A stretch of DNA of 64,000 bases from Eubacterium sp. (GTDB lineage: Bacteria > Bacillota > Clostridia > Oscillospirales > Acutalibacteraceae): contig JAFSTE010000016.1 in NCBI GenBank assembly GCA_017450645.1, forward strand, positions 1-64,000, read 5' to 3'. The notes below the pieces were generated by a model. It did no database searches, was not told the origin of the DNA, and saw only the letters and a list, made by a program, of their open reading frames with translations. Both the position numbers and the translations under genes were made by a program. Shown here one piece after another: positions 301-15,928 of this stretch. Each line of letters opens with the position of its first letter. Position 1 is the stretch's first letter.

Positions 301-322
301 TTCAATCACTTCTTTCTCAAAC

Positions 323-350: not shown

Positions 351-359
351 TAAATAGTT

Positions 360-3300
360 TTATTCGATAGCATATGCTACCTTATAAGGTGTATTTTGAT
401 TAATAACGGAATACGATGTCACTGATGAAGTGTTTTTGGATATTACGGAATCCATATAGTTCAATCCATAGGCAGTATCAACTGTATTGCTGTTATTGTT
501 TAAAGTGTCGTCCCAATACTCGATAACATCTGAATCAGTCGTTGTTGACAACTGTAAGCCTAAAGTATTAAGGGATGTTTCAATCTCACCGACCGATTTT
601 GCTGTTGAGCGGCTTTCGCTTAACAAATTAGAAGAACTGCTTTCGATTATCTGAGGAATAATACTGTTACTTATTACTGTACAGGGAGCATTAAAGCCGG
701 TAGCAGAAATATTGTTAATAGGGTCATTATTGCAATAGTTAAAAAGGTTTGAATTATATGCACTGCCCATATTCTCGGTTAGTGTCATTGGATCACTTGC
801 GTTCAAGAATCTGCCCCAAGAAGGACAATAGTATCTTTCTTGACCATAATACAGACCCGTTTCTTTATCGAATATATAACCGTCATATCCCTGTTCAATG
901 CTTAAGAACATACCCTCAAGATATACGCTTAAAAGTGCGGCTTTAATTATAGCTACTAGAATTTGCTCAACTACTGTGCCGCCAGCTTCCATCTGATTGA
1001 GTTCTTGAATGAATGAACCGGAATAATTCTGTGTCATATTTCCATAAGCATCATAAGAAATAGAAACGACTACCTTTTCATTAGCATCATAAATATCTGT
1101 GATATTGCCTTTTCCGTCTCTTACGAATGTGTAATTTGAGGATTCTTCCCAATCAAAGTATTCAGACCACTCATTGCTATAAGTATTGTTCTCGTTCGCA
1201 ATAACACTAGCGCCAACAAGATTGCCATCGCTGTATATCAATTTGACAACTTTGTCCCAATTAAGAACGTAATCTTCTGGGTCCCCACTTTCAGCGCCGT
1301 AGTATCTGGTGCGATAACCCTCCATCACATCACCGTTCCAAACATATTCGATGATTGATTTTGGAATAACACGTTCGTCACCATCATACATAATTTTTGA
1401 TGTTCTTCTTCCGTCGCCATCATAAGTATATTCGTAATAACGGTCACCGTCATCAAACGAAGTGAGCAAATTACCATTCCAAGTCATTGTTCCTGTTACG
1501 TTAGAATTGTTAATAGTATTTGCACTATAATTAATCGGATTTCCTGAAAGGTCATATGAAATTGCATTATTCCTAAAACTTGTTAAAAAGTCGGTCACAC
1601 CGCTATTAGAATATGAATAATTTGTGGCGGTTCCGTTGTTTGGAAGAGTTACGGTAATTGAATCATCATTATAATTATAGGAATAATTGCTAGAGCTTAT
1701 TGAATACTTCGTCTTTGACTTTAGGTTTCCACCTGCATCATATGCATATTTAATCGCAATATTATTTATTAAATCTAATTCAAGCGATATCTCGCCGCCG
1801 TTATCATACTGGTAGTAATATGCTAAATTGCCTTCATTGTACGAATATGAGGCGGGGTTGCTTCCTGATGCAGTAACATTACTGGAATACTTCCTGAACA
1901 CAGAAGTAATTCGTCCAACATCGTCATATTTATAGTTCCATTCTCTCGTCATGCGAGTGTTACCATAATTCGAGCCGATATTGTTTCTCTTGCTAATATT
2001 AACTGAATAATTGTTAACAAGAGAAGTTTCTCTACCGCTTTGACCAGACACATAACCTGTGCCTGTCGACATACGATAATGGGTAGAACGATTCAAATTC
2101 CCTTTATTTGTAATTTGACTTGAGACTATCCTTTCTAATGAATCTGTAGAAGTTTGAACATCAACATTGGGTCCCAGCAACGAAGCTGAGAACGACTCAG
2201 TAAATGTTTTAATATTATTGCTTGTAGAATTTGAACTTGAATAATTAAATGAATCATTAAACAAATATACCTTGCTTCCCGTGTTTGAATAGATTGTTTC
2301 ATTGTTTTTTGAAATTACACAACCATTACTATTATATGTAGTGACAGTATTTGCTACATGATCAATGATTCTTGAAACTTTATTTGCTTCGTCATATTCG
2401 TATTCATATTCAAATGTTTGGTTATCGTTCCCGGTTTCCCCGTTATCATAAACAACCGAGGTTATTTTATCACCATCGTATTCATAAGTAATTGTTCCGC
2501 CGTTTCCAAATTCGACAACACCAATTTGGTCATTATCATATTCATATGAAACAGAATAAAATGTTTCTTCTTCATTGTTCTCGGTTTCTGATACCTTAAT
2601 ATTTACAATCTGGTTTTTATTATTATATTCATAATCATATGTGTAACCGTTGTGAGTAATTGATTTAATTAAATCATCATCATATGAATAAGTGGTTTGC
2701 TGATTCGTAGGATTAGCTTCATTAAGATTTGTAATTGCTTGTTGAACGGCTACCAATGCCCCAATGCCACTATAAGTGTATTGGGTGTTGTTCGAAGAAT
2801 TACTGTTTTTACCTTTACTCTCTAACAAACCATTAGTATCATTATAATTGTAATATGTTTTTTTACCTTCATCATCGATTAATTCGATATAGTTTGAATC
2901 ATCGTATGAATAATCCTTGCCTAACCAGTTACTTTCAACATCACCAACTTTTACAATAGAAGCAATTGTTCCATTATTTTCATTTGGCACAGTTTCGTAT
3001 GCAGATATAAGCGTTCCATCTGAAACAGCAATATTATTTGTATCTGTTGCTTTATATACTGATACATCGTCAAAATAGCAATACTCATTTAAACCGCAAC
3101 AGTTTAATGAAATCTTAATTGATGTTGTATTCGGAACTGAAACGACAAATTTGCAAGACTGCCAATTATCAGTTTGAGTATAATCGAAAACATATTTACC
3201 TAAAACAGTTGTTCCGTTTAAGACAGTTATGGAATAAAACCTATCATCTTTAAATGGTAATGTTTGAGTGCAAATCGCATTGCAGGACACAACATACTTA

Positions 3301-5378
3301 GTGTTTCTGCTTACAGTAACATTTCTTGTAGTTGAGATTTCATCATAAAGAGACCTCATTTTAAGAGCGTTATTTGTCAGTGAACCCGGTGCATTGGAAA
3401 TACTTGCATCCGATGTGTTGGTGCTACTCGGAATAGTCCATCCACTAGTACCTGATTCAAAGTCACCATTACTCACCAGATTTGTGCTGTTTTCATCTAT
3501 TGGCAAAAGACTTTCAACAGTTCCATCTGAATAATCGAGATAATACTCTTGTCCGTTATAATCCTTACAATAAAGCAACTCTGCATTTGCATCATATTTT
3601 ACGATTTTTTCGGTATTATCAGTGTTATTCTGAAGTGAACGTTTTAATGGGCTGTTCAACGGAGAATTAACAGAAATAGACTTTGCTGTGTTACCATGAT
3701 TTTTCAATGTAAAACCGGAAATCAAATTTGAACTGGATGTATAATTGTAGTATGACAGAGACAATTCTTTGAGTTCAACTGTCATTTCTGTATCTTCATA
3801 TGATTTTACAAGAGACAGTCTTCCATTGTTGTCGTACTGATATACAACCGTATAGTCATCAGGGTATTCTACAGATGACAAACGACCATTATTGTCGTAT
3901 GAATAGTTAATTACAACTGGTTCATTGTTAATGGTAACGGCAGAATAAGTGGAATTATTGTTAAGGTAACTAACACTTATGCTTTCAAGCATATCAGAAT
4001 TATCATAATTAAATGAAAATTTTCTGTTGGAGCCATCAAAGACCTCATTAAGAATGCCGTTTGTATATGAAATCTGAATGGTATTTCCATACTTATCTTC
4101 AATTTCATTTACATAACCCTTACCATCATAAGTTTCAAATGAGTAAGTGTAATCATCTTTATCTGACGTAATTGTAATATTGGCGAAATCTGTTGGATTA
4201 TTTCCCTTTGTCAAAAGAAAAGTATGTCCAGAATTATCATATCCTTTATATGAAGAAGAGGTCTCATAAACAAAGTAAATATAGTTTCCCTCACAGTTTT
4301 TCCAGTAATATTCATTGCTTCCTGAAGAATACTGAAGAGTACTATAATAATTAATTCTTGTATTTACTCCATCCGCTTCATATTCATCAATGGCGGATTG
4401 ATTAATGATGGTTTGAACATTAGCAGGTTCAAGCTCATCAAATATACTTAGGTCATTTCTTACGATGACAGGGTTACAAGAATAATCGTTTAAGTATAGA
4501 GTTCCTGCTCTTCCAAGGTCTACTGACTCAGATTCAAATTTACCGTCAATTTCACCGAGTTCACGATACAAAATGTTAAGAGTCATACTATTAACATCAA
4601 TATTAGTGTTGCTATATGAAGGAACAAAAGCAAGACCAGTATTTGCATATATTCCTAGTGAAGTGTTTCTCATATAGGAAGTTATATCAAAGTTCCAACT
4701 GCTGTCGCTGCCTACAAAATCTGTATCAAGAATAACATTGTTGTAATATTGAAGCTCGACATTTTCAACACTAATTAAATCATTTATCAGTCTGTAAATC
4801 TCCAGTTTGTTGGTGTTATTTGCGGTTGATACTGTCCCGGTATTGATAGTTAATGTTGAATTAGAAATAAAAACAGATTTGTCCGTATTAATTGTAGGTT
4901 TGGCATAGATACAACTCCTTATACCATTCTGTGTTACACCAAGTCCGGCTATTTTTTTAGGCGAATAATTGCCATTACTTAATAGAATAAGACCTTCCTG
5001 ATCGCTTAATCTTGTTGGCTCATCTAATTCTCTGCGTTCAGCGAGTTCTGATACAAGTGCACTGGCATCTTGCGCATTTTCAACAGATGATTCATCAACT
5101 TCATCAATATCCTCCCAAGTTCCATTGACTTCTTCATGAATAGGAACTGCTGCGGACACCTGATAAAAATAACCATCTGATGTTAAAAAGGTTTTAGAAC
5201 TCTCTGTTCGCTTGCTTTCAATTTCGCATTCGATTTCAATCTCTTTTTCATCCAAAACAGTAACAGAATCAGATGAGGATTCTTTGCTGTCGTTGGCATA
5301 TGTCCCAATGGGAATAATTGTCGTTACCATCACAACAGCCATGAACAAAGAAATCATTTTAAATAATTTGTTTTTCAT
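360..5378 (-). CDS. secreted RHS/YD-repeat protein
   Basis: A 1672-residue exported protein. ATG 5378 is chosen because AAAGGAGAA sits at the right distance; a TTG 18 bp upstream lies in front of that site. Residues 1-35 form a signal peptide ending near TYA. Residues about 165-245 resemble the DNRLRE domain that often precedes RHS repeats. Residues about 640-770 look like a CBM_4_9-type jelly roll (starting SNGDFESGTSGW, ending YFDDVSVY). The rest is tandem YD repeats such as YEYDNDQIG and YSYDNNGRLSS, ending in an RHS core near residue 1510 (ETGLYYGQERYY). Known RHS proteins form a shell around a variable C-terminal toxin. Here about 100 low-complexity, Ser/Asn/Thr-rich residues follow the core and match no toxin I know. 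It lies in the mobile island next to the agr locus, which may control it. Confidence 0.88.
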   Translation of the reverse strand: MKNKLFKMISLFMAVVMVTTIIPIGTYANDSKESSSDSVTVLDEKEIEIECEIESKRTESSKTFLTSDGYFYQVSAAVPIHEEVNGTWEDIDEVDESSVENAQDASALVSELAERRELDEPTRLSDQEGLILLSNGNYSPKKIAGLGVTQNGIRSCIYAKPTINTDKSVFISNSTLTINTGTVSTANNTNKLEIYRLINDLISVENVELQYYNNVILDTDFVGSDSSWNFDITSYMRNTSLGIYANTGLAFVPSYSNTNIDVNSMTLNILYRELGEIDGKFESESVDLGRAGTLYLNDYSCNPVIVRNDLSIFDELEPANVQTIINQSAIDEYEADGVNTRINYYSTLQYSSGSNEYYWKNCEGNYIYFVYETSSSYKGYDNSGHTFLLTKGNNPTDFANITITSDKDDYTYSFETYDGKGYVNEIEDKYGNTIQISYTNGILNEVFDGSNRKFSFNYDNSDMLESISVSYLNNNSTYSAVTINNEPVVINYSYDNNGRLSSVEYPDDYTVVYQYDNNGRLSLVKSYEDTEMTVELKELSLSYYNYTSSSNLISGFTLKNHGNTAKSISVNSPLNSPLKRSLQNNTDNTEKIVKYDANAELLYCKDYNGQEYYLDYSDGTVESLLPIDENSTNLVSNGDFESGTSGWTIPSSTNTSDASISNAPGSLTNNALKMRSLYDEISTTRNVTVSRNTKYVVSCNAICTQTLPFKDDRFYSITVLNGTTVLGKYVFDYTQTDNWQSCKFVVSVPNTTSIKISLNCCGLNEYCYFDDVSVYKATDTNNIAVSDGTLISAYETVPNENNGTIASIVKVGDVESNWLGKDYSYDDSNYIELIDDEGKKTYYNYNDTNGLLESKGKNSNSSNNTQYTYSGIGALVAVQQAITNLNEANPTNQQTTYSYDDDLIKSITHNGYTYDYEYNNKNQIVNIKVSETENNEEETFYSVSYEYDNDQIGVVEFGNGGTITYEYDGDKITSVVYDNGETGNDNQTFEYEYEYDEANKVSRIIDHVANTVTTYNSNGCVISKNNETIYSNTGSKVYLFNDSFNYSSSNSTSNNIKTFTESFSASLLGPNVDVQTSTDSLERIVSSQITNKGNLNRSTHYRMSTGTGYVSGQSGRETSLVNNYSVNISKRNNIGSNYGNTRMTREWNYKYDDVGRITSVFRKYSSNVTASGSNPASYSYNEGNLAYYYQYDNGGEISLELDLINNIAIKYAYDAGGNLKSKTKYSISSSNYSYNYNDDSITVTLPNNGTATNYSYSNSGVTDFLTSFRNNAISYDLSGNPINYSANTINNSNVTGTMTWNGNLLTSFDDGDRYYEYTYDGDGRRTSKIMYDGDERVIPKSIIEYVWNGDVMEGYRTRYYGAESGDPEDYVLNWDKVVKLIYSDGNLVGASVIANENNTYSNEWSEYFDWEESSNYTFVRDGKGNITDIYDANEKVVVSISYDAYGNMTQNYSGSFIQELNQMEAGGTVVEQILVAIIKAALLSVYLEGMFLSIEQGYDGYIFDKETGLYYGQERYYCPSWGRFLNASDPMTLTENMGSAYNSNLFNYCNNDPINNISATGFNAPCTVISNSIIPQIIESSSSNLLSESRSTAKSVGEIETSLNTLGLQLSTTTDSDVIEYWDDTLNNNSNTVDTAYGLNYMDSVISKNTSSVTSYSVINQNTPYKVAYAIE

Positions 5379-5546
5379 TTTTGTTCTCCTTTTCAAATCT
5401 TTTCATGTTGGATATTATGTTGGTTAAATAATATTTTATCCCCTCCAAGACTATCTTTTTTCATTGTCAGAACAACCTTAATATAATTTCATTTTAAATT
5501 AAATAGTTTATTCAAAAGTGTATTGGTTTTAGTTCCAAAATGCACA

Positions 5547-5573
5547 AAAGGCACAGGAAAGCCCTGTGCCTTT
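5547..5573 (-). terminator. terminator after the agr kinase gene
   Basis: An 11-bp perfect stem (5547-5557 with 5563-5573) and a 5-nt loop, followed in the minus direction by TTTTGTG. It ends the regulator-kinase transcript before the RHS gene. The 5379-5546 leader holds no convincing sigma-A promoter that I could find, so the RHS gene may need an activator or read-through. Confidence 0.7.
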
Positions 5574-5588
5574 AATCATTTTAATAGT

Positions 5589-6884
5589 TTATTTGTTTGC
5601 TACAGTAAATATAATTGATACTAAGAATTCTTTTTTATCTGATTTGTATTCCCATTCTATATCACCTGAATACTTTTTGACAGCTTTTGTTATGCTTTTA
5701 AATCCATATCCATGAATGCTCTTTTCTTTTTTTGTTGTAAGTAATACATTTTTTTGTGAAACAGGAGGTGTATAGCAAGAATTTAGTAAATCAATAAGCA
5801 TAATATTTTCGACTTGATTTATACTTAAAGATATGTATTTATTATTACACAACTTTGCAGCTTCAATCGCATTATCTAAAAGGTTGTTGAAAATTACTGT
5901 TAAATCGTTATCTGAAATAAAATTCAAATTGGATTTATGAATGTTTTTTTCAAAAGATATATTGCTTTGGTTACATAAAAAGTCATATTTATTAATTATT
6001 AAATCAAGAAGTCGGTTTGAAGTTTTTCCTATTTGATTTGCTTCATCAATATCTTTAACCAGTGATTTTATGTAATTGCGTGCATCATTTGCATTGTCAT
6101 ACAAATCATATAAATTTGCAAGGTGCTTTTTTGTATCATGAACAAACATTTGCAGTTCATTGTTTTGATGTTCTAATAAATCAAAATATGTTTTATCAAG
6201 CTCTTGCTGCTGATGTAAAGATTTTAACTCGAACAATTCTTTCTCATTCTTTGCATATTTTTGCTGTAATAAGCAAGTTAGTATTACTGAAAAAGTAAAA
6301 ATTATTATACTAATAGACATTATCAATTTTGTCTTATCACTTAAATTGTAATCATGAGAAATCATGGTGAATAATGTTAAAACAATTAATAACGAAATAG
6401 GATATAACAAATAAGTTAGATTTGCTCTTTCACCAGAATTGTGTTTATTTATTATGTTCCCAATAATTATTAGTATTATATACATAAAAGACTTACTAAA
6501 AACAATTAACAAAACATAACCAAGCGTATTTTCTATAAACTCATATGTATCAGTTTGAAAAACAATTGCTAATAGATTTACAGTACTTAATTCTGTTATT
6601 GTAACAAGGCTCGTGATTAATACTGAATATATTACTGAGAATTTAATGCTTTGCTTATACAAAAAGTAAGAAAACAAAAAATGAAAAACAACCATAACAA
6701 GTGTATTAACAACTATATTATAGTTAAAGGCGAGATTAAAAAAACACATTATCAAATAACTAGTAAACATTACAGTTAATCGTTTATAGTATTTTTTATC
6801 AAGACTTGTTATATTTTCATAAAAAGAAAAGCATACTATACACTCAATTGTTTGGAGCAATACATTAAACAAATAAGAAACCAT
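5589..6884 (-). CDS. AgrC-like quorum-sensing sensor histidine kinase
   Basis: A 431-residue membrane histidine kinase of the AgrC/GHKL (HPK10) class. The first ~210 residues contain about six hydrophobic segments, the usual peptide-sensing domain. The H-box is HDTKKHL near residue 245. The GHKL ATPase domain has NNLLDNAIEAAK (N box) and HGYGFKSI (G box). It should sense the peptide made by the divergent agrDB pair and phosphorylate the regulator encoded just upstream. The start codon follows the regulator's stop directly, with AGGAGAA inside the regulator's end, which indicates translational coupling. Confidence 0.92.
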   Translation of the reverse strand: MVSYLFNVLLQTIECIVCFSFYENITSLDKKYYKRLTVMFTSYLIMCFFNLAFNYNIVVNTLVMVVFHFLFSYFLYKQSIKFSVIYSVLITSLVTITELSTVNLLAIVFQTDTYEFIENTLGYVLLIVFSKSFMYIILIIIGNIINKHNSGERANLTYLLYPISLLIVLTLFTMISHDYNLSDKTKLIMSISIIIFTFSVILTCLLQQKYAKNEKELFELKSLHQQQELDKTYFDLLEHQNNELQMFVHDTKKHLANLYDLYDNANDARNYIKSLVKDIDEANQIGKTSNRLLDLIINKYDFLCNQSNISFEKNIHKSNLNFISDNDLTVIFNNLLDNAIEAAKLCNNKYISLSINQVENIMLIDLLNSCYTPPVSQKNVLLTTKKEKSIHGYGFKSITKAVKKYSGDIEWEYKSDKKEFLVSIIFTVANK

Positions 6885-7592
6885 CTATTTTCTCCTCTTT
6901 AAATACTGATAGAACACCTTTCTAAATTGTGCTTGTTTTCTATACGAAATTGGAACAAAACTTCCGTCTGTTAACTTTACTTGATCTCTTTGATACTCAC
7001 TAACATAATCCATATTTAATATATAACTTTTATGAACTCGTGAAAAACTTGTATGTGTTAAGTCTTTTTCCCATTCATCAATAAGTTTTGATGAATAATA
7101 AGTTTTTGTAATTGTTACAATTTTCGTTTTGTGGTTTAAGGTCTCTATATAAATAATCTTGTTTGATTTTAATCTAATAATTTTATTTTCATCTTTTAAA
7201 TAGAATTTGACAATATCTTCATTAATCAACTCAATTGCCTTATCTAATCCGCTATAAAATCTTGAATAATCAAGCGGTTTTTGTAAAAAGCGTAATGCAA
7301 ATAAATCTGCCGCGTCGTCGATATATTTCTCATAAGAAGTGATAAAGAATATTATTATATTTTTATTATTATTTTTAAGCTTTTTGGCAATATCCAAACC
7401 AGTAATACTTCCTATTTCAATATCCAAAAAAGCGATATTATAGGTGGTATTTGAGTTTATTGCATCTTCGGCCGAATTGAAGCAGTCATAAGAATAAGTT
7501 ATATTGTGTTCTTTGCAGTATTTTACTAAATATTGCGATATTTCATTGATACAGCTATACTCATCATCACAAATCAAAGCATTAATAGTCAA
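6885..7592 (-). CDS. AgrA-like LytTR response regulator
   Basis: A 235-residue regulator with an N-terminal receiver domain (LICDDE acidic pocket, AFLDIEI phospho-acceptor Asp, ITSYE, LQKPLD conserved Lys) and a C-terminal LytTR DNA-binding domain (IETLNHK, SRVHKSYILN). Family members bind paired repeats at agr-type promoters. I chose the TTG at 7592 because GGTGGTGA sits 5 nt upstream. An ATG at 7607 is possible but has no ribosome binding site. It forms an operon with the kinase, with no intergenic gap. Confidence 0.9.
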   Translation of the reverse strand: MTINALICDDEYSCINEISQYLVKYCKEHNITYSYDCFNSAEDAINSNTTYNIAFLDIEIGSITGLDIAKKLKNNNKNIIIFFITSYEKYIDDAADLFALRFLQKPLDYSRFYSGLDKAIELINEDIVKFYLKDENKIIRLKSNKIIYIETLNHKTKIVTITKTYYSSKLIDEWEKDLTHTSFSRVHKSYILNMDYVSEYQRDQVKLTDGSFVPISYRKQAQFRKVFYQYLKRRK

Positions 7593-7674
7593 AGAATTCA
7601 CCACCATAAAAAAACTCAAAGCATAGTAGCCTTGAGTTTAAATATAACATATAACAATTCATATTTCAAATATT

Positions 7675-8001
7675 TCATAAGTTTTTGCTGTCAAAGTAAG
7701 ACAAAAGTAATGTGTATAGTGTTTGTTGTTCTTTTGAATTTAGTTCTCTAACCAGATCAATAATATTATCATCAACACGTTCTTTTATTGCACCTGACAA
7801 GAGTTGACAAGGACAAATATCTAAAACATTACAAATATTTATTAACGCCGAATAAGACAGATTATTTTTCCCGCATTCAAGATTTGAGATTTCTGTTACT
7901 GAAAGATTAATTCTCTCACTAAGTTCTGATTGGGTGATTCCTTCTTTTTTTCGAAACATAGAGAGTCTGTTGCCTATTATTTCATTGTTACTAATTCTCA
8001 T
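7675..8001 (-). CDS. XRE-family HTH regulator
   Basis: A 108-residue protein with a lambda-Cro/XRE helix-turn-helix at residues ~8-65 (RLSMFRKKEGITQSELSERI, NLECGK) and a short charged tail that may dimerise. It is transcribed away from agrD and in the same direction as the regulator-kinase pair, 82 bp upstream of it. It probably controls the shared 226-bp intergenic region, but the sequence shows no clear operator. Confidence 0.88.
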   Translation of the reverse strand: MRISNNEIIGNRLSMFRKKEGITQSELSERINLSVTEISNLECGKNNLSYSALINICNVLDICPCQLLSGAIKERVDDNIIDLVRELNSKEQQTLYTLLLSYFDSKNL

Positions 8002-8227
8002 GTATTCTCATCACCTCATAACAATTCTATCATTAAAAAGAGCCCAATGGAATATAATGGGATTTCAAAACATAAAACCAAATTTGAAATTATTTTAAAT
8101 TCTTTTTTGTTTTTTTAAAGGTGATTTAAAATTTAAACATTTTGGATGATTATTAACTAATCTTTTATCAATTGACTTGAATACTAATAATAAAAGAATT
8201 ATAACTAACTCGAAAGGAGGTATAAGT
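8002..8227. promoter_or_regulatory. divergent control region of the agr locus
   Basis: A very AT-rich stretch between the XRE gene and agrD. A perfect AAAGGAGG (8213-8220) lies 7 nt before the agrD ATG. TTGACT (8172-8177) has no good -10 at 17 nt; TATAAC (8200-8205) is at 22 nt. This overlong spacer would fit an activator-dependent promoter. I could not identify a convincing pair of LytTR repeats by eye. Confidence 0.4.
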
Positions 8228-8371
8228 ATGTCTAAAAAGATTTTTGAAAAAGCAATAAACTTTATTAATTTCTCGGTAAAGGTCGATGCTAATTCAACAA
8301 ATACAACAGTTGCATTTCAACCTAAATTGCCAAAGCAGTATAAAAAATTTAAAAAGAACAATGATAAATAA
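8228..8371 (+). CDS. agrD: AgrD-like autoinducer propeptide without cysteine
   Basis: A 47-residue peptide directly upstream of and overlapping agrB, with a perfect ribosome binding site. It has the AgrD architecture: a basic amphipathic N-terminal helix (KKIFEKAINFINF), a short polar core, and a charged tail with prolines (QPKLPKQYKKFKK) of the kind AgrB needs for cleavage. It contains no cysteine, whereas AgrD peptides normally supply a Cys for the thiolactone. The core is NSTNTTVAF. A five-residue ring like that of staphylococcal AIPs would run from Thr26 to Phe30, closed as a lactone through Thr or Ser. The class is seen from context and layout; the ring position is inference. Confidence 0.8.
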   Translation: MSKKIFEKAINFINFSVKVDANSTNTTVAFQPKLPKQYKKFKKNNDK

Positions 8372-8942
8372 ACTTTCTGCACATCTGGCAAGAACAATTG
8401 TTAATCAAAACAAAATAAACCCTGATGACTTGGAATTATATCACTACGGACTTTTTATTATTATTTCAGAGTCATTTTTAGCACTCTACTGTTTACTAAT
8501 TGGAATTGCACTACATATCATTATTCAGAGCATTGTTTTTTATTTCACTTTCTTCATTCTGCATAGATTTGCTGGAGGTTTTCACGCTAAAACGGAAATG
8601 CATTGTCAAATTATAACACTATCTTCATTTTTGTTTAGCATGATTGGGATAAAGCACTCTGATTACTTTGATATAAATGTTTTCATAATATCTTTTTCTA
8701 TATGTTGTATTCTTTTGTTAATGTTTGCCCCTGCTGATACTCCTCAAAAGAAACTCAATGTTCTTGAGAAAAAAAGATTTAAAGTACTAACGTTTTTAGT
8801 ATTAGTATTCTTCTTATCTACTCTTATTATACTTATTAAGTGCCATGTCAATAAAACTATAATAAGTTCAATGATTTTTGCAATCTTACTTGAAACAATT
8901 TCAGTTTTATTTGGAAGAATATTGAATTACAAATTATTATAG
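8361..8942 (+). CDS. agrB: AgrB-type membrane peptide protease/cyclase
   Basis: A 193-residue polytopic membrane protein. The start is ATG 8361, overlapping agrD by 11 bp, which implies coupled translation; longer upstream readings run inside agrD and lack a binding site. The AgrB signature RFAGGFHAKTEMHC is present. His75 and Cys82 have the same 7-residue spacing as the catalytic His77/Cys84 of the S. aureus enzyme. AgrB removes the propeptide tail and forms the thiolactone or lactone ring. The substrate should be the overlapping agrD product. Confidence 0.95.
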   Translation: MINKLSAHLARTIVNQNKINPDDLELYHYGLFIIISESFLALYCLLIGIALHIIIQSIVFYFTFFILHRFAGGFHAKTEMHCQIITLSSFLFSMIGIKHSDYFDINVFIISFSICCILLLMFAPADTPQKKLNVLEKKRFKVLTFLVLVFFLSTLIILIKCHVNKTIISSMIFAILLETISVLFGRILNYKLL

Positions 8943-8943
8943 A

Positions 8944-9279
8944 ATGGAATTTGGCGATTGTTTAAAAGCGCTTAGATTAAAAAACGATCTTACTTTACGA
9001 GATTTATCAAAATTGGTCAGCCTTGGTTATCCATATCTTTCAGATATTGAAAACAATAAAAAACCTGCTCCAAACGATAGATCCTTGCTATGTATTGCGT
9101 CAGCTCTAAGCCTAAATAAATCAGAGCAGATGGATTTTTTTGATAGTGCAGCAAAATCCAAGTCTAAAAAAGATAACGACTTTCATTTACCGGCAGATAT
9201 AAGTTTTTATATTATAAACAATAAAGATGAGATAGCAAATATTAGAAAAAAGATTTTGTTAAATTCCAGCGAAAAATAG
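8944..9279 (+). CDS. XRE-family HTH regulator after agrB
   Basis: A 111-residue protein with an XRE helix-turn-helix at residues ~3-60 (LRLKNDLTLRDLSKLV, YLSDIENNKK) and a Lys-rich C-terminal half of unknown function. The start lies 1 nt after the agrB stop, so it is the third gene of the agrDB transcript. It may tune the locus or the element's transfer genes, but the target is not visible. A strong terminator follows. Confidence 0.88.
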   Translation: MEFGDCLKALRLKNDLTLRDLSKLVSLGYPYLSDIENNKKPAPNDRSLLCIASALSLNKSEQMDFFDSAAKSKSKKDNDFHLPADISFYIINNKDEIANIRKKILLNSSEK

Positions 9280-9286
9280 TTTAAGG

Positions 9287-9314
9287 AAATATATCCCTGT
9301 TTTGGGATATATTT
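9287..9314 (+). terminator. terminator of agrDB-XRE
   Basis: An 11-bp perfect stem (9287-9297 with 9304-9314), a 6-nt loop and a following T-rich tract, right after the XRE stop. Confidence 0.85.
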
Positions 9315-9353
9315 TTCAACAATTATGTTCACAACCAGAGAACAAAACTATAC

Positions 9354-9533
9354 ATGATAACACTATCAAAAACCAATTCACATAATACAAAGAAAATTCA
9401 TTGTCCTATTTGTGGTGCAAGACTTTGTGATGTGGAATCTACTGAAAACATCAGTTATATGTCGAATAATAGAATAGGTATAGTACTAAAATGCTATAAA
9501 TGTAAAAACAAGTTTTCAATTAACACTTATTAA
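9354..9533 (+). CDS. small double-CxxC zinc-ribbon protein
   Basis: A 59-residue frame with CPIC near residue 17 and CYKC near residue 48, the spacing of a zinc ribbon. Peptides of this kind (CP.CG.R..D...CxKCK) are common in Firmicutes integrative elements, where their role is unknown. The ribosome binding site is weak, so expression is uncertain, but the paired cysteines and clean frame argue for a real gene. Confidence 0.6.
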   Translation: MITLSKTNSHNTKKIHCPICGARLCDVESTENISYMSNNRIGIVLKCYKCKNKFSINTY

Positions 9534-9560
9534 ATTATATGTACAGCGCATCATCATAAG

Positions 9561-9594
9561 ATAGGAGCCTGACGATTTTTCGTCAGGCTCCTAT
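9561..9594. terminator. 15-bp hairpin, possible bidirectional terminator
   Basis: The perfect arms 9561-9575 and 9580-9594 enclose a TTTT loop. It sits between the zinc-ribbon frame and the leader of the sigma-like gene. It lacks a long T-tract, so it may be a weak terminator or an RNA-stability element. Confidence 0.6.
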
Positions 9595-9668
9595 TTCGTT
9601 GTCCTGCGAAATTTGTAGAAAGGGCAACAATGTTTGAGTTTTGGCTACCGTACATAGCTAAATATCCG

Positions 9669-9720
9669 TAATCTCCGAATTTTGAATAAACAACCAAAAT
9701 TCAAAATTCAAAGGAGATTA
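9669..9720 (+). promoter_or_regulatory. hairpin that buries the ribosome binding site of the sigma-like gene
   Basis: An 8-bp arm (9669-9676 with 9713-9720) and an 11-bp arm (9677-9687 with 9699-9709) are separated by a 3-nt bulge and closed by an 11-nt A-rich loop. The AAGGAG of the gene starting at 9724 lies in the outer arm. Translation should be low unless the hairpin opens. Confidence 0.75.
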
Positions 9721-9723
9721 CAA

Positions 9724-10119
9724 ATGATATATGAATACATAACTGTTTCTGGTACGGAACAAATTGAAATAAGTGATGAATGGGGCGAGGTCCTAAAGGA
9801 ACTTGACCGAAAGGAGCGAAACAACGAACATAAAGAAACTCGGCGTCATTCAACGCTTAATAATGGCATTGATGATTATGAATGGCTTGCGGTTGATGAT
9901 CTAAATATAGAAGCCTTGCTCGGTAAAAAAGAAATAAGCAATGTTGAAAGATTACATTCTGCATTTAATTACTTATCGGATTCTCAAAAAGCTTTACTTA
10001 AAGACCTCTATGTTAATGGTCTAACTGAGGTGCAAGTTGCTCAAAAAGAAGGCGTTACCCAGCAGGCAATTTCGTGTCGCTTAAGAAGAATATTCAAAAA
10101 AATTAAAAAATATTTCTAA
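9724..10119 (+). CDS. sigma-70 region 4-type protein of an integrative element
   Basis: A 131-residue protein whose C-terminal ~55 residues form a sigma-70 region 4 helix-turn-helix (LSDSQKALLKDLYVNG, EVQVAQKEGVTQQAIS). The N-terminal half is acidic, without a visible region 2, so it is probably not a full sigma factor. Similar short proteins occur in Tn916-type elements upstream of xis/int. The start at ATG 9724 has AAGGAG at the right distance; a longer frame has no binding site. That binding site is inside the hairpin described separately. Confidence 0.82.
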   Translation: MIYEYITVSGTEQIEISDEWGEVLKELDRKERNNEHKETRRHSTLNNGIDDYEWLAVDDLNIEALLGKKEISNVERLHSAFNYLSDSQKALLKDLYVNGLTEVQVAQKEGVTQQAISCRLRRIFKKIKKYF

Positions 10120-10620
10120 AAGTGGCTTGTATTTTCCGTTTTTCGTGGCTTCAAGTGAAGGGGTTGTTTTCCATCCTCTTCACGAACCTTGAAAAGTGAA
10201 TACCCATTCGTCAGTAACATCAATTCCAATGTTCTCTGAAAAAGGACAAGCCACTTTATGTGCCACGCCAAGACCTCTCCTTGAGAGCGAGCGATAAAGA
10301 CACATATATGTATAAGCCCGCAGCTTATATGGCGATGACAGTTGGAAGGATAATGGTACTCCCGTAAGGACAATGAACGATGACGGTTTATTCCATACGG
10401 CTCGGAGAGAACCTCGGAGGGGTGAAATTCCCGTGGAGCAGATTAGCACTCTGCCTGCTGACGACTTCCCAAGTGATATTCACTTGCACAAGGGGTGTCG
10501 AGGACAAATGTTGTGCGTATCCGTTTGTTAGTTTCATTTTAGAAATAGTCTGAGATTAACAGACGATATTACATAGCACTCATTTGTTCCGAATGGGTAT
10601 TTGCACTTTCAAATAATACG
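10119..10620 (+). ncRNA. candidate large structured non-coding RNA or leader
   Basis: About 500 nt with no credible gene. Visible pairings are a 12-bp long-range stem (10119-10130 with 10246-10257) enclosing a 9-bp stem (10155-10163 with 10175-10183). Further hairpins lie at 10275-10287, 10311-10329 (7-bp stem, 5-nt loop), 10438-10454 and 10462-10500. The last is a nested CGAC/GTCG, CCC/GGG and CAAGTGA/TCACTTG stack. The sequence is also richer in G+C than its neighbours. It begins within the end of the sigma-like gene and stops just before the MazF gene, so it could be a long 5' leader or a free RNA. I do not recognise it as RNase P, tmRNA, or a group I or II intron core. Two minus-strand frames over it look like shadows. 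Confidence 0.55.
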
Positions 10621-10630
10621 GAGGTGTAAA

Positions 10631-11176
10631 ATGGAAAATCAGAATTTAATCAAACGAGGCAGTATTTTTTACTATGACTTGGGTGCAACAACGGGTTCCG
10701 TTCAAAGCGGAACAAGACCTATTATGATTGTTCAGAACGACACAGGCAATTTTTATAGCCCGACATTAATAGTTGTACCGATTACAAGCGTACCTAAAAA
10801 ATTCTATATGCCTACCCATGTTTATATCGGAAAACAGTTTGGATTAACGGAAGATTCTATGCTTCTTGCCGAACAATTAACAACAATCAGTAAAGACAGC
10901 TTGCGAGGTTTCGTAGGAATGGCTACAAGGGACTTTATGAGGCAGGTTGACCGTGCGTTAGCGATAAGTATAGGACTAACCCGAAAAAGTCGTAAAAAGA
11001 CCTTTGAAGCGTGTCTGTGCCCTACTTGCCTGAGTAACTTCTTTGAAACACACAACTATATCATCCGCAGAATTGATAAATTTCAAACCGAAAAAGATGT
11101 TTGCACATATTGTCAGCAACGAATGGGATATGATTACAGAATAATTGATAGAAAGGAAAGAAAAAACAATGATTGA
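10631..11176 (+). CDS. MazF/PemK-family protein with C-terminal zinc ribbon
   Basis: A 181-residue protein. Residues 1-125 fit the MazF/PemK fold (RGSIFYYDLG, GTRPIMIVQND, LAEQLTTISK), ribosome-independent mRNA endonucleases in type II toxin-antitoxin pairs. Residues 130-161 add two CxxC pairs (C130/C133 and C158/C161), a probable zinc ribbon not found in MazF itself. No MazE-like antitoxin is adjacent, so it may be an orphan or a regulator of the element. ATG 10631 follows CGGAGGTG. Its end overlaps the next HTH gene by 8 bp. Confidence 0.85.
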   Translation: MENQNLIKRGSIFYYDLGATTGSVQSGTRPIMIVQNDTGNFYSPTLIVVPITSVPKKFYMPTHVYIGKQFGLTEDSMLLAEQLTTISKDSLRGFVGMATRDFMRQVDRALAISIGLTRKSRKKTFEACLCPTCLSNFFETHNYIIRRIDKFQTEKDVCTYCQQRMGYDYRIIDRKERKNND

Positions 11177-11369
11177 AAAACAGGTTTATACAGTAAATGA
11201 CATTACTGTTTTGTTAGGTATTGGAAAAACAAAAGCCTACGAATTAGTTAAATCAAATTGCTTTAGAACACTGAAGGTTGGGGGACAAATTGTAGTACCC
11301 AAAAGAAGCTTTGATTTATGGCTGAACGGTGCAGATGAAGAAACTCCTTCTGTCGAATATGCGAATTGA
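11169..11369 (+). CDS. excisionase-like HTH protein 1
   Basis: A 66-residue winged-HTH of the excisionase/MerR-like class (VNDITVLLGIGKTKAYELV, then GGQIVVPKRSF). The start overlaps the MazF stop (ATGATTGA), so translation is coupled. It is clearly paralogous to the protein at 11846-12085 (shared LGIG.TKAYELV, FRTLKVGGQIV and KRSFDLWLNG). Such proteins bend DNA at attachment sites or repress element promoters; which of the four HTH proteins is the true Xis cannot be told from sequence. Confidence 0.8.
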   Translation: MIEKQVYTVNDITVLLGIGKTKAYELVKSNCFRTLKVGGQIVVPKRSFDLWLNGADEETPSVEYAN

Positions 11370-11399
11370 AAAATCGCATAATTAACAAATTAGCTACAA

Positions 11400-11430
11400 T
11401 CCCTTATCATTACATCAAAATGATAAGGGA
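11400..11430 (+). promoter_or_regulatory. hairpin overlapping a ribosome binding site
   Basis: A 10-bp perfect stem (11400-11409 with 11421-11430) and an 11-nt loop. The right arm ends in AAGGGA and the binding site AAGGGAGG continues out of it, 9 bases before the ATG at 11439. It is similar in size and loop length to the hairpin at 9669-9720. Confidence 0.7.
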
Positions 11431-11438
11431 GGTTGCTT

Positions 11439-11828
11439 ATGAACAAGAAAAGCATGAAAGTCAAAGAAATGGCAGATATGCTGGGACTCAAAAAAACAGA
11501 TTCCTATTATCTGCTGCACAAAGGTTGGTTTGAGGTTGTTACCATTCAAGGCAAAATGCGAATTATGGTTGATAGTTTTGAAAAGTGGTACAACAGTCAG
11601 ACGGCTTACAAAAAGGTAAACGGACCGCCGCCGTCTAATATCGAGTATTACACATTAAGGGATATTAGCGAAATAACGGGAAAATCGGTTGGTCGCATTT
11701 GGGAACGAGTCAGTAAAGGACAGATTCCCGCCGTACATACGCAAAAGGGATACAGAGTCAAAAAAGATGATTTTGAGAAATGGTATGCCGAATACAAGGA
11801 AACTTGGATGTATAAATATTATGGATAA
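11439..11828 (+). CDS. tandem excisionase-like HTH protein
   Basis: A 129-residue protein with two copies of the small winged-HTH fold. Residues ~5-50 (VKEMADMLGLKKTDSYYLL, ending VDSFEKWY) and ~70-120 (LRDISEITGKSVGRIWERV, ending KDDFEKWY) have the same plan. It belongs to the group of four consecutive xis-like genes before the integrase. It may act as a fused dimer on adjacent half-sites; that is inference. Confidence 0.8.
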   Translation: MNKKSMKVKEMADMLGLKKTDSYYLLHKGWFEVVTIQGKMRIMVDSFEKWYNSQTAYKKVNGPPPSNIEYYTLRDISEITGKSVGRIWERVSKGQIPAVHTQKGYRVKKDDFEKWYAEYKETWMYKYYG

Positions 11829-11845
11829 CTAAAGGAGAAATACAA

Positions 11846-12085
11846 ATGGCTTCAAAAATAGAAAGACAAGTGTATTCTGTGAATGAAATAATGATTATGT
11901 TAGGAATTGGTCGCACCAAAGCATACGAATTAGTTAATGCAAATTATTTCAGAACATTAAAAGTCGGTGGACAAATAGTAATTCCTAAAAGAAGTTTTGA
12001 TTTATGGTTAAATGGTCCTATTGAGGAAATCTTTAATATAATTGATGAGGAGGATTCAAATGAAAACGATGTACTCAGTTCCTGA
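11846..12085 (+). CDS. excisionase-like HTH protein 2
   Basis: A 79-residue close paralogue of the protein at 11169-11369, sharing nearly all of the HTH and wing. The tail is longer and acidic. It has a good AAGGAG site. Its last 26 bp overlap the start of the next HTH gene, so the two are translated together. Confidence 0.82.
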   Translation: MASKIERQVYSVNEIMIMLGIGRTKAYELVNANYFRTLKVGGQIVIPKRSFDLWLNGPIEEIFNIIDEEDSNENDVLSS

Positions 12086-12227
12086 AATCACGAAGATTTT
12101 AGGTGTATCAAAAAATGCAGTATATGCTCTTATTAAAAATAATTGCTTTAAGAGTTACAGAACTGCACATGGATATTTGATACCAATATCCAGCTTTGAG
12201 AGTTGGTTATATGAAGGGAAGGTGTAA
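12060..12227 (+). CDS. excisionase-like HTH protein 3
   Basis: A 55-residue single winged-HTH (YSVPEITKILGVSKNAVYAL, wing YLIPISSF). ATG 12060 follows GAGGAGG; an upstream ATG has no binding site. It sits 2 nt before the integrase start, the position normally held by Xis, and is therefore the best Xis candidate. Confidence 0.8.
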   Translation: MKTMYSVPEITKILGVSKNAVYALIKNNCFKSYRTAHGYLIPISSFESWLYEGKV

Positions 12228-12229
12228 TA

Positions 12230-13588
12230 ATGGCTTCAATAGTAACCCGAAAAAATAAGTACTCCGTTGTTTATTCATACACCGATGCTTCCGGTGCAAA
12301 GAAGCAGAAATGGGAAACCTATGATAAACTTTCGGATGCAAAAAAGAGAAAAACAGAGATTGAATATCAGCAGAACAATAACACTTTTGTAATTCCGACA
12401 TCTGATACTTTATCTGATTTAATGGAAGAATACTTCAAAATTTATGGTGCAACAAAGTGGTCAATGACAACCCACGAACATAATGTTGCTTTATATAACA
12501 ATTATATTAAGCCGTTGATCGGACACATTAAGATTACGAATATTACCACCAGAGCGATGAACAATTTCTATCAGGAATTGTTAGTAACTGAAGCGGTTTC
12601 AACAAACTGTCGCAGGGCTCGCACGGAATTTGTAACTACTCATACGGTTGTTAAAATCCATAAACTCTTACATAGCGTATTTGAACAGGCTTGCAAGTGG
12701 GATATGCTTCAGAAAAACCCTTGTGAAAATGCAACCGTTCCAAAAGCAGCTTGCGAAGAGCGTGAGATATGGGATATGGATACTATTCACAAGGCACTTG
12801 ATGTTTGTGATGATGATATGCTTAAACTTGCAATCTCATTGGCGTTTGCTTGCTGCCTTCGCTTAGGCGAGTTGCTTGGCTTAACTTGGGACTGCATAGA
12901 TGTATCTGAAACAAGCATTGAAAACGGCACAGCGCACATCTTTGTCAACAAGGAATTACAGAGAGTTAATCGCTCATCTATGGACTTCTTATCAGATAAA
13001 GATGTAATGCTGAAATTTCCGGCTGTGCTTAAATGCACAAACACGGTATTGCTGTTAAAAACTCCAAAAACGAAAACCTCTGTCCGCAAAGTGTTCTTAC
13101 CAAAAACGGTAGCATATATGCTTCGTGAACGCTATGACGAGGTGCAGGAGATAAAAGAATTGTTCGGCGATGAATTTCAAGACTTCAATCTCGTATTCTG
13201 CAACACAAGCGGCAGACCTATTCAACATTGCGTTATAAATCGGGCTTTCTCAAAGCTCATTAGTGATAATAACCTTCCGAAAGTTGTCTTTCACAGTTTA
13301 AGACACTCCTCAGTAACATACAAATTAAAACTGAATGGCGGCGATATTAAATCCGTTCAGGGCGATTCAGGACACGCTCAAGCGTCAATGGTTACAGACC
13401 GATATTCACACATTTTGGACGATGACAGGATGCTGAACGCTCAAAGAATGGAAAAGGCATTTTACAGCCCGACAGATGCTGCTCCATCGGTTCCGAGTTT
13501 AACAGAGGAAAACGCTGAACTGATTAAAAAACTTTTGGAAAACCCACAGATGTTAGAGTTGGTTAAAACCTTAACCAGTTCTAACTGA
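12230..13588 (+). CDS. int: tyrosine-type site-specific integrase
   Basis: A 452-residue tyrosine recombinase. It has an AP2-like arm-binding N-terminus (~1-65), a core-binding SAM-like domain (~65-170) and a catalytic domain with all the usual residues: Arg211 (CLRLGELLGL), His355/Arg358 (HSLRH), His382 (GHAQ) and nucleophile Tyr392 (DRYSH). It catalyses insertion and excision of the island. It lies ~320 bp from the tRNA-Arg fragment, the expected place for attR. Confidence 0.96.
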   Translation: MASIVTRKNKYSVVYSYTDASGAKKQKWETYDKLSDAKKRKTEIEYQQNNNTFVIPTSDTLSDLMEEYFKIYGATKWSMTTHEHNVALYNNYIKPLIGHIKITNITTRAMNNFYQELLVTEAVSTNCRRARTEFVTTHTVVKIHKLLHSVFEQACKWDMLQKNPCENATVPKAACEEREIWDMDTIHKALDVCDDDMLKLAISLAFACCLRLGELLGLTWDCIDVSETSIENGTAHIFVNKELQRVNRSSMDFLSDKDVMLKFPAVLKCTNTVLLLKTPKTKTSVRKVFLPKTVAYMLRERYDEVQEIKELFGDEFQDFNLVFCNTSGRPIQHCVINRAFSKLISDNNLPKVVFHSLRHSSVTYKLKLNGGDIKSVQGDSGHAQASMVTDRYSHILDDDRMLNAQRMEKAFYSPTDAAPSVPSLTEENAELIKKLLENPQMLELVKTLTSSN

Positions 13589-13593
13589 TACAT

Positions 13594-13639
13594 AAAAGTA
13601 CACACCCTTTAAGAGTTTGTGAAAAAGGTGTGTACTTTT
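13594..13639 (+). terminator. terminator after the integrase gene
   Basis: A 13-bp perfect stem (13594-13606 with 13627-13639) with a 20-nt loop, starting 6 nt after the integrase stop and followed by CCTTTT. Confidence 0.8.
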
Positions 13640-13649
13640 CCTTTTGTTT

Positions 13650-13686
13650 GTGATACAATTCAAATGACGAATCAAAGTGATACAAT
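13650..13686. repeat. direct repeats GTGATACAAT, possible integrase arm sites
   Basis: Two perfect 10-bp copies at 13650-13659 and 13677-13686, 27 bp apart, between the integrase and the tRNA fragment. Arm-type sites of tyrosine integrases are often short direct repeats at such a place. Confidence 0.45.
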
Positions 13687-13903
13687 GTGATGTTATATGA
13701 TAAAAACACAGTATCAAATTGAACTTTGTTAATGTCCCCGAATATTAAAGGTTGCTAAAAACCTGCTAATTGGAACATATAAAACAGTTTGAAAACATCT
13801 GATGATTATTAGCAAAATAATGGATTCGCTCACAGGTAAAAAACCGTGAAAAACAGTGCTTTTTGAGGCTTTTTACTGCCGAAAAAATTGTTGCTGAGCC
13901 TTG

Positions 13904-13948
13904 CTCCTAAGCGGTAGGCCGTTGGTTCGAATCCAATCGTGGGTGCCA
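13904..13948 (+). other. attachment site (attR): 3' part of tRNA-Arg(CCU)
   Basis: The sequence contains the anticodon loop (CTCCTAA), the 3' anticodon stem (GCGGT), a full T arm (GTTGG-TTCGAAT-CCAAT), the 3' acceptor strand and encoded CCA (13946-13948). The 5' anticodon strand ACCGC, the D arm and the 5' acceptor strand are absent upstream. This is the fragment left where an element inserts into a tRNA gene. The intact copy should lie at the other end of the element, left of this window. Confidence 0.85.
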
Positions 13949-13988
13949 ATATTAAAAGCCATCCTTTGGGGATGGCTTTTAATATTGG
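13946..13988. terminator. 19-bp hairpin behind the tRNA fragment
   Basis: The perfect arms 13946-13964 and 13970-13988 enclose a 5-nt loop. It starts at the CCA of the tRNA fragment. The right arm carries CTTTT and the structure is the original tRNA-Arg terminator. Confidence 0.8.
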
Positions 13989-14299
13989 ACATAAGCTTAG
14001 ACCGCGCAAAAAGCAGCGAAGCGAAATTTTGCGCGGAGAGGAGAAACATATGAAGTGATTGTTAGTATTTTGCTTGCAAAATGCTTTAATCACGGAATAT
14101 GTTTGGACGAGTGGGTGCCAAAAACGACACGGTTAAAGGGTGGGCAACTAAGGGATTTAACAGATTTTGAAATGCTCTTTTCCGCTATAACGGCTTCAAA
14201 ACAAGGGTTAAGGCAATGCCGCGTCGTTTTTTAATATTGGTGAATACTTTTAATTGTTTTGTGCAAAATAATACTACTAATAATAAAGGTGGTAAAATT
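13989..14299. other. non-coding stretch with two large hairpins
   Basis: There is no credible gene. A 10-bp stem (14002-14011 with 14027-14036) is followed by a 61-nt extended imperfect hairpin at 14044-14104 (8, 6 and 6 bp segments). GTGGGTGCCAA at 14111-14121 repeats the last bases of the tRNA-Arg fragment (13940-13950 region). No clear promoter is visible for the gene at 14300. Confidence 0.5.
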
Positions 14300-14749
14300 A
14301 TGCAGGAATATGCAGGACGCGACGGCGACACCGTAAAGCTCCTGAGGGAGTGCGACGCGGGTATTAAAATGGGCGTTGACTCAATCGACGATGTGGTTGA
14401 CCGCGTGGAGGACGCAAACTTTAAAAAACTGCTCCAGCAGTGTAAGCTAAAGCACCAAGAGCTCGGTATGGAGGTAGGTCAGCTTCTCGGTTTACACGAG
14501 GACGACGGCAAAAACCCGAACCCGATGGCTAAGAGTATGAGCCGAATTAAAACCGGCGCAAAAATGCTCGCCGACAACAGCGACGCGACCATAGCCGACC
14601 TTATGACCGACGGCTGCAATATGGGCGTAAAGTCGCTTAGCAGGTACTTTAACCAGTACAAAAGTGCCGACGAAAAGTCGCGCGACATCTGCGAAAGGCT
14701 CGTTAACCTTGAGCTTCAGCTCACAAACGACATCAGAAAATATCTTTAG
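14300..14749 (+). CDS. ferritin-like four-helix protein, function unknown
   Basis: A 149-residue, almost entirely helical protein. Its length and helix pattern, with acidic and His positions in the first two helices (DSIDDVVDRVED, CKLKHQELGMEVG), resemble the DUF2383-like ferritin-type bundles. I cannot assign metal ligands with confidence. ATG 14300 follows AAAGGTGG; a longer reading begins in non-coding sequence. It is the first chromosomal gene right of the island and is transcribed alone, with its own terminator. Confidence 0.7.
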   Translation: MQEYAGRDGDTVKLLRECDAGIKMGVDSIDDVVDRVEDANFKKLLQQCKLKHQELGMEVGQLLGLHEDDGKNPNPMAKSMSRIKTGAKMLADNSDATIADLMTDGCNMGVKSLSRYFNQYKSADEKSRDICERLVNLELQLTNDIRKYL

Positions 14750-14755
14750 CAGAAG

Positions 14756-14789
14756 CGGGAGGATTTAATCCTTCCGTTTTTTTATTTTT
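14756..14789 (+). terminator. terminator with T-tract
   Basis: An 8-bp stem of CGGGAGGA and TCCTTCCG (one G-U pair) followed by seven T, directly behind the 14300 gene. Confidence 0.85.
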
Positions 14790-14792
14790 TTG

Positions 14793-14821
14793 TTGAAAAA
14801 TTTTCAATCTTTATATATAAT
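14793..14821 (+). promoter_or_regulatory. sigma-A promoter of ddh
   Basis: TTGAAA (14793-14798), a 17-nt spacer and TATAAT (14816-14821), 31 nt upstream of the ddh start. Confidence 0.85.
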
Positions 14822-14852
14822 AGTAATGTTAATATTTCTAAGGAGGATTATT

Positions 14853-15830: not shown

Positions 15831-15895
15831 GCTATGAGCCGAGAGCTGTGAGCTATGAGCTTATGGTTACTCGCTTCGCTCAAACAATAAATTAA
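15831..15895. repeat. intergenic repeat, 'agctatgagc / cgcttcgctc' family
   Basis: Short iterated units (GCTATGAGC, GAGCTGTGAGC) followed by TTACTCGCTTCGCTCAAACAAT. Related copies lie at 33087-33150 and 47763-47822 in the opposite orientation, with partial matches near 41050-41205. It has no coding capacity. Confidence 0.65.
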
Positions 15896-15928
15896 CACCG
15901 CAACTCAACCGAGTTGCGGTGTGTTTTT
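15896..15928 (+). terminator. terminator of ddh
   Basis: An 11-bp perfect stem (15896-15906 with 15911-15921), AACC loop, then a run of seven T that reaches the stop of the convergent aldolase gene. Confidence 0.9.

Follow-up and report, generated by a model that had tools for sequence, protein, structure and literature searches.

It was concluded that the window, that is, the whole analysed DNA stretch of 64,000 nucleotides, carries a complete agr-type locus. Based on sequence comparison, we proposed that it is a working quorum-sensing locus, the signal of which is predicted to be a five-residue threonine lactone (TTVAF); the probability of this reading was estimated at about 0.7. The features of the locus are given below, where the counterparts are those of the six Thr-type relatives described later.

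5589..6884, minus strand: agrC, membrane sensor kinase with a GHKL ATPase (PF14501, E 4.7e-23)
6885..7607, minus strand: agrA, LytTR response regulator (PF04397, PF00072); counterparts in six of six relatives
7675..8001, minus strand: XRE repressor-like gene adjoining the divergent promoter of agrD (PF01381); in six of six relatives, 38-75% identical
8213..8220, plus strand: strong Shine-Dalgarno sequence of agrD, aaaggagg
8228..8371, plus strand: agrD, ATG start, 47-residue pro-peptide without Cys; inferred limits of leader 1-21, core NSTNTTVAF and tail QPKLPKQYKKFKKNNDK
8303..8317, plus strand: predicted ring Thr26-Thr27-Val28-Ala29-Phe30, from gapless core alignments
8303-8305, plus strand: Thr26 codon ACA, in the column of the ring Cys
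8318..8332, plus strand: QPKLP, P-x-x-P region right after the predicted cut between Phe30 and Gln31
8361..8942, plus strand: agrB, membrane cysteine protease/cyclase (PF04647, E 3.1e-31, 108.6 bits against a cut-off of 23)
8583-8585 and 8604-8606, plus strand: His75 and Cys82, the AgrB dyad, both invariant in the clade
8944..9279, plus strand: second XRE-like gene, after agrB (PF01381); among the six relatives only in L059 and L060

The cysteine-free pro-peptide and its locus

The translated agrD product was 47 residues long (MSKKIFEKAINFINFSVKVDANSTNTTVAFQPKLPKQYKKFKKNNDK) and contained no Cys, as had been reported in the first-pass annotation. The AgrB described there, with His75 and Cys82, was confirmed as well and matched PF04647. 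Encoded beside agrB, the pro-peptide was composed of a leader, a core and a P-x-x-P tail, as in agr-type systems. Neither Cys, as in thiolactone AIPs, nor Ser, as in serine-lactone AIPs, was found at the ring position; it was occupied by Thr in all seven members of the clade.

The assignment of this position was investigated with a profile built from 39 Cys-only AgrDs of related loci, from which the Ser and Thr types were excluded and the window was absent. Run against the window, divided into 1262 six-frame pieces, the profile recovered the agrD frame with an E of 2e-11, and the next best piece reached an E of 1.9. The alignment was gapless, and the ring-Cys column fell on Thr26. The window AgrD belongs to the same precursor family as TIGR04223, the curated NCBIfam AgrD model, but scored 13.4 bits, under the 19-bit cut-off, which was passed by both clade relatives tried (L003, 22.4 bits; L031, 26.8 bits). 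A thiolactone was called impossible in the first-pass annotation; this AgrD has no Cys and carries Thr26 in the ring-Cys column. The possibility raised there of a second small frame with a normal Cys core beside agrB was not borne out: a pattern search of both strands of 5401-10600 returned no Cys-core frame. Further, the organism's own genome (2.08 Mb, 87% complete) yielded neither a second AgrD at E<=10 nor a second AgrB at E<=0.001.

The ATG of agrB at 8361 was located inside the 3' end of agrD, the overlap being 11 nt, and the ggaggt motif before agrD was kept in seven aligned intergenic regions. Both agrC and agrA were full-length, with the Pfam domains of a sensor kinase and a LytTR regulator present. 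Counterparts of agrC, 45-52% identical, were found in five of the six Thr-type loci; the available stretch of the sixth, L106, stopped short of the gene. The layout, in which agrA (often with an XRE gene) is divergent from agrD-agrB, was common to many Cys-type relatives, hence the Thr type represents one variant of a local agr family. AgrB was modelled with high confidence (mean pLDDT 94.1) as a mostly helical protein. However, the model says little on specificity, since no solved relative was recovered: the search by sequence gave nothing credible (two designed proteins at E 0.04), and that by fold gave no match at E<=0.001.

Threonine-type relatives and the AgrB tree

AgrB was searched in 80 genomes of the genus and 398 genomes of the family, giving matches in 19 and 28 of them, respectively, and the AgrB alignment of the clade was searched in the genera of two relatives (matches in 12 of 39 and 3 of 22 genomes). 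In GTDB species contigs, 34 loci were obtained with the AgrB alignment. Five of these, L056-L060 (JAFLSA010000042.1, JAMPEQ010000003.1, CANRIZ010000013.1, CANQXE010000018.1 and JAGAJB010000040.1), encoded AgrBs identical to Thr-type ones already found; two of their isolate names contained Lapin, French for rabbit, and one a water deer cecum. In viral contigs the same alignment detected two loci at 24-26% identity without a readable AgrD core, and single-sequence AgrB scans of genome contigs and viral contigs confirmed nothing. A Thr-type AgrD profile, run against 394 genomes of the order, matched 12 of them at 13 places in total; three of these places had Thr, all already known, and ten had Cys or Ser. 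Plasmid and phage records gave no match, save one weak unannotated phage match.

The AgrDs of the relatives were read from small frames at the start of agrB. Their cores aligned gaplessly, most Cys-type relatives having the form ANST-[TS]-C-xxx-[FY]-QPK and some carrying Ser for Cys. The Thr-type set consisted of the window and six relatives, with the following residues at positions 25-30: NTTVAF (window), STLSVF (L003), STMMAY (L004), STGAAY (L005), STFLSF (L031), STLAAF (L032) and NTTMAF (L106). The six relatives span three genera of the family, and their AgrBs were only 43-49% identical to that of the window, so the Thr trait is probably old. Thr26 was invariant in all seven clade members found, while positions 27 and 28 each showed five residues and position 29 three; position 25 was Ser, directly before Thr26, in five members and Asn in the window and L106. 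Since the Thr26 codons (ACA, ACG and ACT) differ silently, it is the residue that has been kept and not the DNA. The alignments established that Thr26 is homologous to the ring Cys and that Thr is conserved across a clade with an intact AgrB dyad.

Across a 14-sequence AgrD alignment, Q31, P32, K33 and P35 were invariant. Ser23 and Thr24 were invariant too, but the alignment includes Cys-type peptides, and their conservation is therefore no argument for a role in the ring. Asn25 as the counterpart of the ring Cys, as in C. difficile, was considered at first and dropped, the Cys of the relatives standing in the Thr26 column. The first-pass annotation had asked whether the ring position of related peptides is always Thr or Ser; this held for Thr in the clade of the window, while elsewhere the column contained Cys, Ser or Thr.

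The AgrB tree was built from 65 AgrBs with a readable AgrD core, 35 of 100 distinct AgrBs being left out. The linked AgrDs comprised 43 Cys, 12 Ser and 9 Thr types and one without a nucleophile, which is no unbiased frequency because resemblance to the window AgrB or AgrD had brought these loci into the set. By eye, five labels were changed, to Cys for L013, L052, L065 and L077 and to Ser for L086; L048, with Tyr, received the label none, and L099 was counted as Ser although Cys comes directly after. The seven Thr-type AgrBs formed one clade (support 100/95), the likely sister of which was L116 (ATTFMY; support 90/72, long branch). A second origin of Thr was found in Coprococcus catus VPIC661 (L068, NSTLLCH/EPSAP), located in a five-row clade (97/92) with four Cys-type rows from Lachnospiraceae and other records. 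In the AgrD of this locus (L068:7840-8004), for which a ring of TLLCH or shorter is predicted, the Thr that aligns with the ring Cys is followed by a ring Cys of its own, three residues on. On this tree, Ser required nine changes. A quick tree of 124 AgrBs, with 60 class-wide sequences added and L048 omitted, contained 90 Cys, 24 Ser and 10 Thr types, with three origins of Thr and 15 changes for Ser. Cys82 was present in 124 of 124 AgrBs from Cys-, Ser- and Thr-type loci; His75 was as well, but this residue had served in anchoring the frames.

In the class, TIGR04223 matched 113 of 391 genomes, and 90 of the 113 were read, one locus each. After correction by eye, this Clostridia sample contained 67 Cys, 20 Ser and 3 Thr types (L213, L219 and L239). 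The script alone had given 62 Cys, 25 without and 3 not found, and a re-reading gave 65 Cys of 89, with L230 not found and a wrong frame for L260. An adjoining AgrB was detected for L219 and none beside L213 or L239; the other Thr cases with an adjoining AgrB were thus L116, L068 and L219. Oxygen nucleophiles are common in Clostridia, and Thr is rare but recurring. AgrB residues that track the oxygen nucleophile were sought among the top-ranked columns (at most 12) in four usable independent pairs, too few to yield a residue signature.

Several loci showed additional features. Tandem agrD-like frames were present in L048 and L049, the upstream one with a Cys core and the agrB-adjacent copy without (Tyr in L048); the latter is perhaps a decoy or a decaying copy. 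L058 carried two receptors at one locus, since besides the usual divergent agrC a second one, about 50% identical to the window AgrC, was located directly after agrB (L058:8728-10017, plus strand). Two TGCAGTT copies 21 bp apart were found in the intergenic region before agrD of L057, a pair presumably resembling the LytTR (AgrA) direct repeat.

Predicted chemistry of ring closure

We inferred the cleavage site, the ester bond, the leader cut, the sensing and the output as follows. The AgrD tail (QPKLP...) would be held by AgrB, and Cys82, aided by His75, would cut between Phe30 and Gln31 with formation of a thioester. The hydroxyl of Thr26, replacing the Cys thiol, would then attack the thioester to give TTVAF, a ring of five residues closed by an ester. 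Removal of the N-terminal leader would follow, probably by a cut near Ala21-Asn22, resulting in something like NSTN-[TTVAF], and this step might involve a CPBP-type protease like MroQ. One protein of PF02517, which we take to be the CPBP-type protease family of MroQ, was found in the genome, and nothing connects it to the AgrD peptide. A role of MroQ in the removal of the AgrD leader is described in the available text of PMC10885120. The exported peptide would be sensed by the divergently encoded AgrC and the signal relayed to AgrA, the pair presumably turning on agrDB and neighbouring genes. The computed [M+H]+ of cyclic NSTNTTVAF is 936.4421, and the other computed cyclic values are 520.2766 (TTVAF ring), 634.3195, 735.3672, 822.3992 and 1007.4792; each corresponding linear form would be heavier by 18.01 Da.

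The ring residue of the E. faecalis GBAP is Ser, which fits the Table 1 legend of its source; this ring is four residues larger than the one predicted here, and fsrD is located inside fsrB. GBAP is a lactone AIP, as the signal of the window is predicted to be, and is produced by an AgrB relative (FsrB/FsrD; PMC3673130). This and the following comparisons refer to excerpts of the cited sources. Lactone AIPs of S. intermedius and of E. faecalis have been described (PMC3673130). The first-pass annotation was correct that serine lactones are known in staphylococci, but they are not limited to them, as C. thermocellum and E. faecalis show (PMC5322536, PMC3673130). With the serine-lactone AIP of S. 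intermedius/pseudintermedius the predicted signal shares a hydroxyl in place of the thiol and an ester ring (PMC3673130, PMC10482373), although the residue there is Ser, perhaps acquired via a point mutation, whereas the window belongs to an old Thr clade. The AgrD-type pentapeptide R5T0 of C. thermocellum is a clostridial five-residue lactone AIP, as is predicted for the signal of the window; its Ser25-Phe29 lactone was confirmed by LC-MS/MS. Its nucleophile is Ser, and its authors found no adjoining agr operon or AgrB candidate, according to the portion of the paper available (PMC5322536). A threonine-closed AIP, considered new in the first-pass annotation, is new in the sense that none was found among the matches listed in the open-access literature searched, of which excerpts were available; subscription papers were mostly outside this scope.

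The S. aureus system resembles that of the window in the His/Cys dyad of AgrB, the leader-core-tail order of AgrD and the AgrC/AgrA pair; in it AgrD is cleaved by the Cys and His of AgrB, with formation of an acyl-thioester on which the Cys of AgrD acts as the nucleophile (PMC10482373, PMC4979651). Unlike the Cys-closed thiolactone of S. aureus, the ring of the window is predicted to be closed by Thr, and agrCA is divergent and accompanied by XRE genes.

The threonine lactone is favoured by Thr26 aligning with the ring Cys without gaps and by its retention in all seven peptides of a well-supported clade with AgrBs 43-49% identical to that of the window, while positions 27 and 28 vary. It is also favoured by the silent differences between the Thr codons and by the finding that Ser has taken over from Cys in the ring repeatedly (12 of 65 linked AgrDs; 20 of 90 in the Clostridia sample), together with the other Thr cases. 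The presence of Cys82 in every AgrB compared, the full-length agrC and agrA and the oxygen-ester precedent point in the same direction, as does a lactone analogue in Listeria that retained its agonist activity (PMC11297923). Counting against it are the hydroxyl of Thr, a weaker and more crowded nucleophile than the Cys thiol, the window AgrD score under the TIGR04223 cut-off, and Ser25 in five of the seven peptides. Moreover, AgrB1 and AgrB2 of S. aureus were unable to process a Ser AgrD, and neither AgrC1 nor AgrC2 was activated by S. aureus AIPs in lactone form, as far as the excerpts of PMC10482373 go; the exchange of nucleophiles does not, therefore, come automatically.

Closure by another hydroxyl, with a different ring size, was considered unlikely. 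The candidates are Ser25, which adjoins Thr26 in the five relatives, and Thr24 or Thr27 in the window; in the Clostridia sample, as judged by eye, the ring residue mostly lies one residue further upstream of QP, and the Ser-type relatives L037 and L044 have two candidate Ser in a row. However, Asn occupies position 25 of the window and L106, position 27 varies, Ser23 and Thr24 are also conserved in Cys-type peptides, and in the surrounding AgrB clade every one of the 28 Cys-type rows, L013 included, has its Cys in the Thr26 column. A nearby Ser or Thr, which the first-pass annotation had allowed for, therefore fares worse than Thr26 with the ring TTVAF, its first suggestion, which the alignment of the relatives supports.

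A linear signal would result if AgrB cut after Phe30 and the thioester were resolved by water instead of Thr26. This is possible, if improbable. AgrD offers no thiol, and hydrolysis would be the default if Thr attacked poorly, but such a route has no need for a Thr fixed at the ring column amid varying neighbours. In the available part of PMC5322536, the linear C. thermocellum control had no effect on growth, whereas the cyclic peptide had one.

The lactone may also be an intermediate that, after trimming to Thr26, undergoes an O-to-N acyl shift to a homodetic cyclopeptide, an outcome with little probability. Enzyme-primed cyclopeptides are reportedly the topic of one paper on clostridia, known by its title, which speaks for such a product. 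A Listeria P2 lactone analogue rearranged in this manner (48% after 22 h), and a lactone analogue in Listeria kept agonist activity but was hydrolysed or rearranged, according to excerpts of PMC11297923. The whole conserved NSTN/NSTS stretch would have to be removed, however. The mass of the cyclopeptide equals that of the ring-only lactone, and mass alone cannot separate the two.

Decay of agrD, leaving a locus that no longer signals, was considered very improbable: degenerate AgrD copies exist, as in L048, where a copy with Tyr in the ring position accompanies one of the Cys type, but a deep clade has preserved Thr26, QPK.P and NFS.K..ANST. The dyad of AgrB is intact, neither AgrC nor AgrA is truncated, and no replacement AgrD was found in the 87% complete genome.

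Possible mobile context and meaning of the threonine class

Two further features flank the locus of the predicted threonine lactone.

360..5396, minus strand: RHS/YD-repeat protein of 1678 residues, after agrC (PF05593, E 3.5e-8, 34.1 bits)
12230..13588, plus strand: tyrosine integrase (PF00589, E 1.7e-19)

The 1678-residue RHS-repeat protein looks secreted, and its position makes it possible, as a guess, that it is the output of the agr system. A giant protein was found at the same place in L059 (up to 4899) and L060 (up to 4978), both running off the available stretch. RHS repeats scored 57.5 bits in L059 and 17.8 bits, under the cut-off of 22, in L060. Compared with the protein of the window, that of L060 matched at 24% over 1749 columns and that of L059 aligned over 94 columns only. 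No giant protein follows agrC in L056-L058.

Beyond agrB, a tyrosine integrase was present in the window and L059 and a serine recombinase in L060, which suggests mobile copies; a PemK-like gene was also found there in the window and L059. Inspection of L057 and L058 by eye revealed no recombinase, and L056 stops about 1 kb past agrB. Positions 9682-13588 of the window contained a Sigma-70 region-4-like protein, a PemK/MazF-type toxin, two HTH genes and the tyrosine integrase. A mobile element probably terminates in this segment, and its opposite end may lie beyond the contig start, the contig beginning at window base 1. The two HTH genes, of which the one scanned was HTH_17, share a 177-nt direct repeat (75%), the one family of direct repeats in 1-16000. 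No tRNA gene was found in the window.

Further, a broader reading was formulated, which we hold tentatively and regard as rather doubtful. Throughout Clostridia, the place of the ring nucleophile would be interchangeable between Cys, Ser and Thr, and the Thr class would be an old, separate depsipeptide dialect, unreadable to thiolactone receptors and carried in some members on mobile elements, with a giant secreted RHS-repeat protein under its control. If the signal is indeed a threonine lactone, AIPs have a further ester chemistry. Thiolactone AIPs are reportedly trapped by native chemical ligation, and such thiolactone-dependent methods would be expected to miss Thr-type AIPs. Cys-, Ser- and Thr-type AgrB/AgrD pairs, all of which are present in the genus of the window, would be natural sets of enzymes for asking which features enable AgrB to use a hydroxyl. 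This question arises from the inability of S. aureus AgrB to process a Ser AgrD.
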